A stretch of DNA of 64,000 nt from Noviherbaspirillum sp. Root189. GTDB taxonomy: Bacteria > Pseudomonadota > Gammaproteobacteria > Burkholderiales > Burkholderiaceae_D. Below, in pieces: positions 38,719 to 61,125 of the stretch. The stretch is taken from NCBI RefSeq assembly GCF_001428545.1, contig NZ_LMHZ01000034.1, positions 182,174 through 246,173 of the forward strand. Direction: 5' to 3'. How positions within the stretch are numbered: position 1 is the stretch's first letter; each line of letters starts with the position of its first letter. The notes below the pieces were generated by a model. It was not told where the DNA came from, searched no databases, and saw nothing but the letters and a program-made list of their open reading frames with translations. The position numbers and the translations under genes are program-made.

Positions 38719-40098
38719 TTATAAATCGACAACTTGCACACCGGGCTTTTTCAGCCATTTGCGCACGATCTGGTATACGTCGCGATCGAATGGATGGCGT
38801 CCTTTCTGCAGCAGCATCTCCGTTTCTTCACCGGTACGCGCGGCACCCAGATACGACCAGCAGTCGACCACATGAAAAGTCTCGTTTTCGCGGATGGCAA
38901 TCGGGCCCTTGAACGGCCACGGCTGCAGGCGTGAACTTTCCAGTGCCGCCAGCACCCGGGCGTTGTGCGCGTCGATACTCTCCTTGCCGGCGCAGGCACC
39001 CGGGCACTTGCCGACCTGGCTGGCGAAACAAACCTTGCCGCCTCTGCTTTTTTCCAGTCCGAGCAAGAGATGGCAAAGCCCATTGGCATCGGCGATCGCA
39101 CGTATCGCGTCATTGGCCTTGCGGGTGCTGCTATACACGCCATACATGCTGGGATCAATACCGAAGAACAGGTCATCGGTGGTGGTCAGCACCGGCACCA
39201 GCCGGCCTTTGCGCATCGTCAGGCGCCAGGAACAGACTTCTTCGTTGTCGCGCAGCTTCTGGTTATAGACGGGCCGCAATGCCTTGACCAAGGCGGCTTC
39301 CTGCAGCAATGCGCCAAGTTCTCCGGAAGTTTCTATCCACGCGACGCGTTCGATCTGCTGGCTGAGCCGTTGCTCTTTCGACGACATATGATCGCCACTG
39401 AAATGCGACAACACGCGGCGACGCAAGTTGTTGGCCTTGCCGATATACAAAGGCAGATCGTTTTCACCATAGAACAGGTAGACGCCGTGCGACCCCGGCA
39501 TCTGATCGATCTGCAGCGCATCGAGCCGCGCCGGGATGGTGGGCTGGCTGATGAGTTTGCCGACAACTTCATCAATGGTTTCAATCGTATGCTCTTCATG
39601 GATACGCTGCCAAAACTGCCAGATCAATTGCGCATCGCCGAGTGCGCGGTGACGTTCGGTCACATGCAGCTTGTGGCGTTCGGCCAGCGTATCGAGATTG
39701 TGTCGTGCGAAGCCGGGGAACAATTTGCGTGACAACCGTACCGTACACAGCACCTGCGGCCGGAAATCGCGTCCGATACGACGAAATTCATTGCGCAGGA
39801 AGCCGTAGTCGAAGCGTGCGTTATGGGCGATGAATACACGGTCGGCAAGGCGTGCGGCGACTTCATCGGCAACCGCTTCGAACGGTGGCGCGTCGGCGAC
39901 CATCTCATCCGAAATCCCCGTCAATGACTGGATGAATGGCGGGATCGTGATGCCGGGGTTCACCAGGCTGCTCCATTCGCGCACCCCGTCATCGTCGACT
40001 TCGATGATGCCTACTTCCGTGATGCGGTCTTCGGTGGCGGAGCCGCCAGTTGTTTCAAGGTCGACAAAGGCGAGGTGCGGGAATTTGCGGGCTGTCAT
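38719..40098 (-). CDS. DnaQ-type 3'-5' exonuclease fused to GIY-YIG (UvrC/Cho-like) nuclease
   Basis: 459 residues. Residues 8-165 form a DEDDh exonuclease: D13/E15 in FVDLETTGG, HNARFDYGF (92-100) and HRALGDA (150-156). Residues of about 203-285 form a UvrC/Cho-like GIY-YIG domain (GVYLFYGENDLPLYIGKANNLRRRV). The Cys-rich C-terminal third (CFASQVGKCPGACAGKE) is also seen in this fusion family. The start has GGAAG just before it and lies ten bases after the UdgX-like stop, so the two are probably one operon under the LexA box. A role in excision repair is inferred. Confidence 0.85.
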   Translation of the reverse strand: MTARKFPHLAFVDLETTGGSATEDRITEVGIIEVDDDGVREWSSLVNPGITIPPFIQSLTGISDEMVADAPPFEAVADEVAARLADRVFIAHNARFDYGFLRNEFRRIGRDFRPQVLCTVRLSRKLFPGFARHNLDTLAERHKLHVTERHRALGDAQLIWQFWQRIHEEHTIETIDEVVGKLISQPTIPARLDALQIDQMPGSHGVYLFYGENDLPLYIGKANNLRRRVLSHFSGDHMSSKEQRLSQQIERVAWIETSGELGALLQEAALVKALRPVYNQKLRDNEEVCSWRLTMRKGRLVPVLTTTDDLFFGIDPSMYGVYSSTRKANDAIRAIADANGLCHLLLGLEKSRGGKVCFASQVGKCPGACAGKESIDAHNARVLAALESSRLQPWPFKGPIAIRENETFHVVDCWSYLGAARTGEETEMLLQKGRHPFDRDVYQIVRKWLKKPGVQVVDL

Positions 40099-40108
40099 GC
40101 TTCCATAT

Positions 40109-41083
40109 TCAGTGATGTCGCGCGTCCCCGGCGATAAGCCGCTCCGCGGTTTGCAGTGCTTTCACCATGTCGGCGAAGGCCGCCGCTTTCAATTGTTCAT
40201 CCGGCGCCCGCAAGACGTAGGCCGGATGATAGGTTGCAACCACCCACTGGCCGTCATGCTGGACAGGATTGCCGAGCATGCTGTTCAAGGTGACCTTGCT
40301 GCTTTGCATGATCGACTTGAGCGCGGTGCTGCCCAGCGCTACCAGCACCTTGGGCCTGATCGCGGCAATCTCGTGTTCCAGCCAGTAATGACAGGCTGAA
40401 ATCTCGCGTTGTCCCGGCGTCTTGTGCAGGCGCCGCTTGCCGCGTGGCTCCCATTTGAAATGCTTGACGGCGTTGGTCAGGTAGACGGTATCGCGGTCCA
40501 CGCCAGCCTGCTGCATCACGTCGTCCAGCAGTTTTCCGGCGGGCCCGACAAAGGGCAGCCCTGCAAGGTCTTCCTGGTCGCCGGGTTGTTCACCAACCAG
40601 CATGATCGTCGCATGATCCGGTCCGACGCCAGGCACACCCTGTGTTGCCATGCTCCATAAATCACAGCGCCGGCACTGGTCAAGATCGGTCGGCGCATCA
40701 CGCTGCGGCTGCGCATCCGCAGGAGCGATGTCGATGGTTTTTCCTTTGCGCACGTCCACTTCTTTGGCCTGCCCGACGCGCTGGCCGCCAGTCCCGGCAC
40801 GGCTGACCAGTTCGGGAATCAGTTTGCCTTCCGGCAGGTTCTTCCAGTAACGTACAGGCATATGCATCTCCATCGCCCCGGTATTCAAGCGGGCGGGATT
40901 GAAAATACTGCGGTAGTACGCGAGCCACAGAGCTTCGCCGCTATCCGCGATGTCGTCGACGCGCGCCACGGGAGGGCCGAAGTGCAGTCCGGTGCCATCC
41001 CATATGGCCGAACCTTTCGGCGTGCCGATCATCCAGCTGCTTTTGCCCATGCGATGCGAAAAGTGTTGCGCCACGCGCGTCAA
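40109..41083 (-). CDS. udgX: UdgX-like uracil-DNA glycosylase, with truncated DUF4130 N-terminus
   Basis: 324 residues. The C-terminal 190 are a family 4-type UDG: CRRC (137-140), GEQPGDQED (164-172), KRRLH (216-220) and HPAYVLRAPD. The KRRxH loop marks UdgX, whose His attacks uracil sites and cross-links covalently to DNA; His220 is intact. The N-terminal 95 residues match only the end of DUF4130 (SAIWDGTGLHFGP; YYRSIFNPARLNTGAME), the domain normally complete in such fusions, so about 150-170 residues are missing. The first codon is a TTG overlapping the upstream remnant's TGA. Activity of the UDG part is plausible. Confidence 0.75.
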   Translation of the reverse strand: MTRVAQHFSHRMGKSSWMIGTPKGSAIWDGTGLHFGPPVARVDDIADSGEALWLAYYRSIFNPARLNTGAMEMHMPVRYWKNLPEGKLIPELVSRAGTGGQRVGQAKEVDVRKGKTIDIAPADAQPQRDAPTDLDQCRRCDLWSMATQGVPGVGPDHATIMLVGEQPGDQEDLAGLPFVGPAGKLLDDVMQQAGVDRDTVYLTNAVKHFKWEPRGKRRLHKTPGQREISACHYWLEHEIAAIRPKVLVALGSTALKSIMQSSKVTLNSMLGNPVQHDGQWVVATYHPAYVLRAPDEQLKAAAFADMVKALQTAERLIAGDARHH

Positions 41084-41327
41084 GTGTCGTGCTGCGGCCG
41101 GTAATCAGCGGTCACAATGAATGGTTTGAGCTTGTCCATGCTGCAGCGAAGACGTGCCAGATCTGCATAACGGATTCGCCGTGCCCGGCGAAGTTCCACC
41201 AGTCGCCGCGCATTGCGCAAACCAATGCCCGGGACACGCACAATCAGATTCGGATTCGCAGTATTGAGGTGAGGGGAAAGTGTTCGCGATGGGCCAATGC
41301 CCAAGCCAGCTTGTCGATCAGTTCCAT
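41080..41327 (-). pseudogene. Radical-SAM DNA-repair protein (UDG-linked) with large internal deletion and frameshift
   Basis: The start MELIDKLA fits the N-terminus of the UDG-linked radical-SAM family (MxLxxKLxILADAAKYD). It runs directly into WALAHREHFPL, the C-terminal region of the same family, skipping the cysteine motif and barrel. The join occurs at the shared DKLA/KLAW sequence. After HFPL the frame shifts and continues as NTANPNLIVRVPGIGLRN, ARRLVELRR, LARLRCSMDKLKPFIV, TADYRPQ, the helix-hairpin-helix tail. About 250 bp remain of an expected gene over 1.2 kb. It is immediately upstream of udgX. Confidence 0.75.
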
Positions 41328-41339
41328 CAGCTTTGCATG

Positions 41340-41355
41340 CTGTTTTTATATACAG
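41340..41355 (-). promoter_or_regulatory. LexA (SOS) box
   Basis: On the minus strand TACTGTATATAAAAACAGCA contains CTGT-N8-ACAG, a perfect match to the proteobacterial LexA consensus with an AT-only core. It lies 12 bases before the ATG of the deleted radical-SAM gene, so it should control the remnant-udgX-exonuclease operon. Confidence 0.85.
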
Positions 41356-60507: not shown

Positions 60508-61125
60508 ATGTACCAGGAACCCATCGTGATGCTCGACTTTGAAACCACCGGATTGTCGCCGGCGGCCGGGGCACGCATTACCGAAGTCGCTGCATTGAAG
60601 ATCCAGGGCGGTCGCATCGTTGACCGCTATGTATCTCTGGTCAACTGCCATGTTCACGTGCCGGCCTTCATTACCAGCCTGACCGGGATTACCCAGAAGA
60701 TGGTCGACAGCGCGCCGTGTGTCTCGCGGGTGGTGCCGGAGCTGCTGGCGTTTATCGGCGATGACGCGCTGTCCGCGCACAATGCAAGTTTCGATGAAAA
60801 ATTCCTGATCGCGGAAAGCCGTGATCTCGGGTTGATGCCGCGTCACCGCCGCCTGGTATGTTCCTTAAAACTGTCGCGGCGGGTGTTTCCGGGTTTGCCA
60901 AGTTACAAGCTTGGTATGCTGTCTTCATCGCTTGGGATTCGTTTCAAGGGTACTGCGCACCGTGCAGAGGCCGACGCGGAAGTCAGCGCCAATGTGCTGC
61001 TGCATATCGGTGAGCATTTGCAAAGCCGATATGGGCTGACACGAGTGGATACGGAATTGTTGTCACGTGTCACGGCACTGAGCGCGGCAAAGGTGCCGGA
61101 GTTCTTGCGGAGGCAGGCAGCGTGA
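60508..61125 (+). CDS. DnaQ-like 3'-5' exonuclease
   Basis: 205 residues from MYQEPIVMLDFETTGLSP. DEDDh motifs: MLDFETTG, SAHNASFDEKFL and HRAEADAEV, with the active-site His. Same size as stand-alone epsilon-like or PolC-type exonucleases. It may proofread or trim DNA or RNA ends. No repair operon partner is adjacent. Confidence 0.85.
   Translation: MYQEPIVMLDFETTGLSPAAGARITEVAALKIQGGRIVDRYVSLVNCHVHVPAFITSLTGITQKMVDSAPCVSRVVPELLAFIGDDALSAHNASFDEKFLIAESRDLGLMPRHRRLVCSLKLSRRVFPGLPSYKLGMLSSSLGIRFKGTAHRAEADAEVSANVLLHIGEHLQSRYGLTRVDTELLSRVTALSAAKVPEFLRRQAA

Follow-up and report, generated by a model that had tools for sequence, protein, structure and literature searches.

The locus described here lies on the minus strand of the window, as we call the whole 64,000-nt stretch of DNA that was analysed. 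Read along that strand, it opens with a LexA-type box (CTGTATATAAAAACAG, positions 41340 to 41355), which sits 12 bp before the ATG at 41327 of a radical-SAM (rSAM, TIGR03916) pseudogene (41080 to 41327). A truncated UdgX gene (40109 to 41083) follows and, after a ten-base gap (40108-40099), an intact gene (38719 to 40098) for a 459-residue fusion of a DnaQ-type DEDDh exonuclease with a GIY-YIG (Cho) part. The perfect CTGT-N8-ACAG box and the ten-base gap leading into the DEDDh-GIY-YIG fusion are as a first-pass annotation of this DNA had placed them.

In the rSAM pseudogene, the N-terminal 7 codons are fused to the C-terminal HhH region, after which the frame is shifted. The remnant matches only positions 323-380 of 415 in TIGR03916 (37.7 bits; cut-off, 343.5), and the full-length profile match with the radical-SAM core is missing. 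One base has been lost at about 41273-41259, and the frame opened by ATG 41327 encodes a 27-codon peptide with its stop at 41246-41244. The gene had been described as cut down to its two ends; both ends are indeed there, but the one-base frameshift had been overlooked, and the remnant is not one frame.

Comparison with three congeners (G195, G196, and G023) delimited two deletions. Deletion A removed rSAM codons 8-308 (903 nt, in frame). Its junction, CAAGCTGG (41306 to 41313, minus strand), is present once in the window and at both ends of the missing 903-nt stretch in G023; G195 has a shorter shared piece, CAAGCT, at these ends. Deletion B, of about 530 nt, fused the 3' end of rSAM (just behind DYRPQHD) with mid-DUF4130 sequence at 41086 to 41092 (minus strand). 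As a conjecture, GCACGAC might have served as its microhomology; G023 and G195 carry this piece at the UdgX side, and no congener carries it at the rSAM side. Both deletions are known from one assembly.

The truncated UdgX gene is open over 324 codons and encodes the tail of DUF4130 (residues 1 to about 85) followed by a complete UdgX domain. Its product scores as a member of the UdgX family (TIGR03914, 253.8 bits against the curated cut-off of 189.95), and a solved UdgX chain of 209 residues aligns over its positions 21-204 with residues 134-313. All UdgX motifs have been kept, as the first-pass annotation had noted: GEQPG (motif A), KRRLH (R-loop), and HPAYVLR (motif B). They comprise E165-Q166, R218, H220, and H286-R292, with R218 and H220 being the equivalents of R107 and H109, and they match the UdgX motif definitions, and the residues that matter by mutation, in PMC10359453. 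Only the tail of DUF4130 had been said to remain, which proved accurate: TIGR03915/DUF4130 is matched over positions 154-242 of 243 only (87.8 bits against a cut-off of 112.25), and Pfam DUF4130 passes its gathering score yet is covered over just 73-146 of its 146 positions. The first ~150 residues are gone, and no complete DUF4130 domain is left.

The full UdgX frame is opened by a single start, TTG 41083, without a good ribosome-binding site, and within the first 130 codons no candidate start exceeds 4 of 6 Shine-Dalgarno matches. Start-stop coupling from the rSAM stub, in which this TTG would overlap a TGA, was ruled out because the frame of ATG 41327 ends after its 27 codons. The window UdgX keeps its catalytic motifs and, if translated, would probably be active; it could cross-link to the abasic site through His220 after excising uracil, both activities being predictions from sequence. 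Structure prediction returned a mean pLDDT of 72.5 for the full-length G023 protein (35 sequences) and of 66.5 for the window protein (34 sequences), too weak to judge the folding of the DUF4130 tail. A fold search with the G023 model revealed, among the matches listed (50 of 744), UDG-superfamily structures and one phage DNA polymerase, with no DUF4130-assignable structure among them.

Of 120 UdgX columns with at least 95% conservation across 83 relatives, 1 is changed in the window UdgX (range over 84 sequences, 0-5); in its DUF4130 tail, 0 of 32 conserved columns are changed. This was not counted as a sign of UdgX maintenance, since the dead rSAM stub fares just as well. The stub has 40 conserved columns with 4 nominal changes, all of them within the first 7 residues (6 of the 40 columns) and caused by alignment of this N-terminal piece to the wrong region; the other columns are unchanged (0/34). 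Over 60 codons, the stub differs from G195 at 12, 4, and 29 sites in codon positions 1, 2, and 3, respectively. From 36 columns, no more than about 8% changes per conserved codon would have accrued after the lesion (95% upper bound), and 34 columns give nearly the same value. Because the stub is as clean as the UdgX gene, the lesions are recent, and conservation cannot separate retention from fresh loss. In pairwise dN/dS comparisons of UdgX, no acceleration was seen, at synonymous distances to the window of about 1 or more.

The third gene carries RNase_T (121.5 bits) and GIY-YIG (28.5 bits) matches in one chain, both above gathering, and is a Cho/DnaQ fusion; its score with NCBIfam Cho (251 bits) falls short of that model's cut-off (367), and its scores with the DEDD-exonuclease fusion models are likewise below threshold. 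The nearest relative is the Cho fusion of G162 (80% identity, dN/dS of 0.11 at a dS of about 1.2). Another DnaQ-type exonuclease region lies at 60523-60999 on the plus strand of the window and shares 38% identity with the fusion's exonuclease half. A role in anti-phage defence was considered and set aside, as PADLOC models match the exonuclease part of the nuclease only; none matches the window UdgX or the full-length rSAM and UdgX of congeners.

With regard to control, the box is the sole exact CTGT-N8-ACAG in the window, where 0.51 would be expected by chance, and what gives it weight is where it stands and that relatives conserve it, rather than any rarity. Indeed, rSAM is preceded by a perfect box at most 60 nt upstream in 80 of 82 distinct loci, whereas letter shuffles (n = 500) gave 0.042 on average and never more than 1. 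The two exceptions (L111 and L149) have a box with one mismatch, which in L111 is at -67. Across the genome that holds the window, CTGT-N8-ACAG occurs at 55 places versus 76 for the reversed control, and the bare pattern is therefore no evidence by itself. We inspected ten stretches of this genome containing 12 of the 55 boxes, picked mostly for AT-rich centres, and found SOS-type genes behind the boxes in 4 of the 10. Boxed genes included lexA (two boxes), recA, and a UmuD-type gene; one boxed stretch holds imuA, an error-prone DnaE-type polymerase (partial there), and a second Cho-like gene with a profile match of 334.8 bits (cut-off, 367). Among the other six stretches no SOS-type gene was recognised, and in the two whose nearest frame was family-searched no family was returned. 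The window box is thus of the same type as those before the genome's lexA, recA, imuA, and DnaE-type polymerase, which points to membership in the SOS regulon, and LexA would be expected to bind it, with induction upon DNA damage. In locus L237 (G000:C4:61300-66900), the second, stand-alone Cho-like gene and imuA are divergently oriented and separated by one LexA-type box, while the error-prone DnaE-type polymerase is preceded by a box as well.

Boxes with up to one mismatch were also sought elsewhere. None was found within 900 nt of the G162 nuclease, nor within the same distance of the G128, G173, and G023 nucleases, which are not directly behind UdgX. Since the G162 nuclease has no recognisable box, such control is not indispensable. 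In addition, no LexA-type box (up to one mismatch) was present between a point 400 nt ahead of the open frame and the match in four stand-alone UdgX genes (L004, L006, L008, and L022). These four, judged by length and frame reading to lack DUF4130, are boxless, unlike the composite UdgX operons.

With regard to occurrence in the family, 195 genomes were searched; TIGR03916 exceeded its cut-off in 54 and TIGR03914 in 59, and the 182 genomes with a match at E 0.001 include other family-4 UDGs. The genus group comprises 15 genomes, and rSAM was searched in all but G197. An rSAM over the cut-off or of full length is present in 6 of the 15 (G023, G058, G081, G173, G195, and G196, with one match cut by a contig end), the locus is eroded in 2 (window and G162), and a match is absent from six (G100, G115, G128, G141, G151, and G184). 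Among 80 named loci, the 410-residue rSAM query was matched over at least residues 1-394 in 79; the remaining one, L135, starts at a contig end. The nuclease directly follows UdgX only in G081, G195, G196, the window, and G162, from among 87 loci examined (two duplicates included, the G081 locus being also present as L138, and a few loci having little downstream sequence). In G023, it is found about 6 kb further along the same contig. A UV damage endonuclease, UvsE, follows DUF4130-UdgX in G058 (L064:2722-3618); the repair nuclease behind UdgX therefore differs between species. The family also includes stand-alone UdgX with no rSAM match (e.g., G151 and G031). A plasmid origin of the operon was not adopted, as none of the plasmid records covers 80% of it.

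Comparing the locus in relatives had been suggested as a check, and it revealed the full rSAM/DUF4130-UdgX pair in G195 and G196 at the same site. The genes flanking it on both sides are common to G195, G196, G162, and the window; they would be a GGDEF regulator, an HPF-like protein, and a molybdopterin oxidoreductase, identities read off the sequences rather than from a family search, with the large putative oxidoreductase gene covered by just the G162 and G195 stretches. In G162, the locus has no rSAM match and no UDG domain save for the last stretch of the chain, and its Cho fusion is intact. The DUF4130 fragment of G162 has changed at 9 of 39 conserved columns, with 23 aligned columns missing. 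G162 keeps DUF4130 sequence that is gone in the window, and the window keeps the UDG domain that is gone in G162; thus, the losses are independent. One chromosomal site is therefore found in three states, full (G195 and G196), half eroded (window), and nearly gone (G162), and the locus erodes along independent routes with the nuclease kept.

Collectively, we consider our data to be best explained by the recent decay of a known SOS-induced repair operon in one species of soil-type bacterium, not by a new minimal repair system, and we give this reading a probability of roughly 0.83. The ancestral operon would have consisted of the LexA box, rSAM, and DUF4130-UdgX, plus the DnaQ/GIY-YIG nuclease in part of the genus. 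Two deletions and a frameshift, recent on the window's branch, destroyed rSAM and the first ~150 residues of DUF4130-UdgX. Upon DNA damage, LexA cleavage would lead to de-repression and to one transcript spanning the non-coding rSAM stub, what is left of udgX, and the nuclease gene, which is intact. The nuclease, with its DEDDh exonuclease and GIY-YIG endonuclease, would act as a Cho-type back-up excision enzyme, making Cho-type incisions followed by exonuclease trimming, as proposed for such fusions in PMC1839093. Any UdgX arising from a weak or internal start could still remove uracil and become cross-linked to the abasic site. Selection most likely maintains the nuclease, and the promoter is kept for it. 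The first-pass picture of an SOS repair operon shedding its rSAM/DUF4130 part while retaining the UdgX motifs and the nuclease is borne out by the full arrangement in congeners.

What speaks against decay is that the window UdgX is open over 324 codons with 1 of 120 columns changed, so that it may still be used and selected. It is conceivable, though in our estimate unlikely, that a working UdgX is kept under SOS control without rSAM and without a whole DUF4130, in which case losing rSAM and the beginning of DUF4130 was tolerated or favoured and the short enzyme works beside the nuclease. The presence of GEQPG, KRRLH (R218/H220), and HPAYVLR, the near absence of changed columns, the correspondence of the stand-alone M. 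smegmatis UdgX to residues 134-313, and the stand-alone genes of G151 and G031 are all consistent with such retention. On the other hand, TTG 41083 is the sole full-frame start and lacks a good ribosome site, the ATG 41327 frame ends at 41244 and leaves no start-stop coupling, the UDG domain was lost at the same locus in G162, and the clean rSAM stub places the lesions too recently for conservation to count. If a working UdgX were kept, uracil cross-linking and a Cho-type nuclease would be a sufficient SOS unit, and the rSAM/DUF4130 step would be separable. The notion of a minimal UdgX module, raised in the first pass, was not supported: rSAM is a frameshifted pseudogene, G162 has lost the UDG domain instead, and the notion is not needed because the stand-alone M. 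smegmatis UdgX (209 residues) already is one.

It is highly improbable that an intact operon exists in the organism and that misassembly produced the deletions. This is one draft genome of 90 contigs (6.15 Mb), with a short repeat at deletion A. However, the contig is 251,879 nt long and its nearer end is about 28 kb away from the locus, an assembly would not collapse at repeats of only 7-8 bases, a one-base frameshift is present besides, an own-genome TIGR03916 search gave this single match at E <= 0.001, and the same locus was eroded independently in G162.

Decay of a known operon also agrees with what is in print. One of the partners in such systems is COG4277, which we take to be the TIGR03916 rSAM/HhH protein. 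An SOS-regulated COG1573-COG4277 UDG operon is described for Bacteroidetes in PMC8565304, which cites Erill et al. 2016 for Verrucomicrobia and Alphaproteobacteria. Like that operon, the window locus pairs a UDG-superfamily gene with a partner gene under a LexA-type motif; it differs in having a pseudogene as the partner, a truncated UDG gene, a box of the form CTGT-N8-ACAG, and a nuclease gene downstream. M. smegmatis UdgX (PDB 6ajo and 6ail; PMC10359453) shares the complete domain, GEQPG, KRR-x-H, and the HP...R of motif B, but it is a stand-alone protein of 209 residues, whereas the window protein has a broken DUF4130 tail and lies in an SOS-type operon. Cho/Pol III epsilon fusions of beta-proteobacteria were listed in 2007 (PMC1839093) and share the N-terminal DEDDh exonuclease and Cho-like GIY-YIG part with the window nuclease, which, however, is directly downstream of UdgX, a placement seen only in genus loci from among the 87 examined. 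Finally, PMC3765255 presents DUF4130 as a predicted mutagenesis-related enzyme, linked in 2013 to an SplB-like radical SAM protein and UDG; the ancestral DUF4130-UdgX protein of the congeners is of this kind, whereas the window keeps the C-terminal part of the domain only. The full system is thus already in print, and the window holds a degraded copy of a known kind of operon. As regards its control, the portions of the literature that we searched contained no statement of a LexA-type box before rSAM/DUF4130-UdgX in Oxalobacteraceae or Burkholderiaceae, and our data show such a box to be conserved before the pair in the sampled loci of both.

The window and its congeners provide a snapshot of a known SOS operon vanishing piecewise within one genus at the same chromosomal site, and the full, half-eroded, and nearly gone states offer a natural experiment on how far the parts of the system can be separated. 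At the nearly gone locus, a roughly 165-nt imperfect inverted-repeat element (L223:2957-3121 of G162; 70% arm identity) separates the eroded locus from the genes upstream. No copy of it was detected in the window or, the same place excepted, elsewhere in the other fetched loci (E 1e-5), and it resembles a small mobile or REP-type element.
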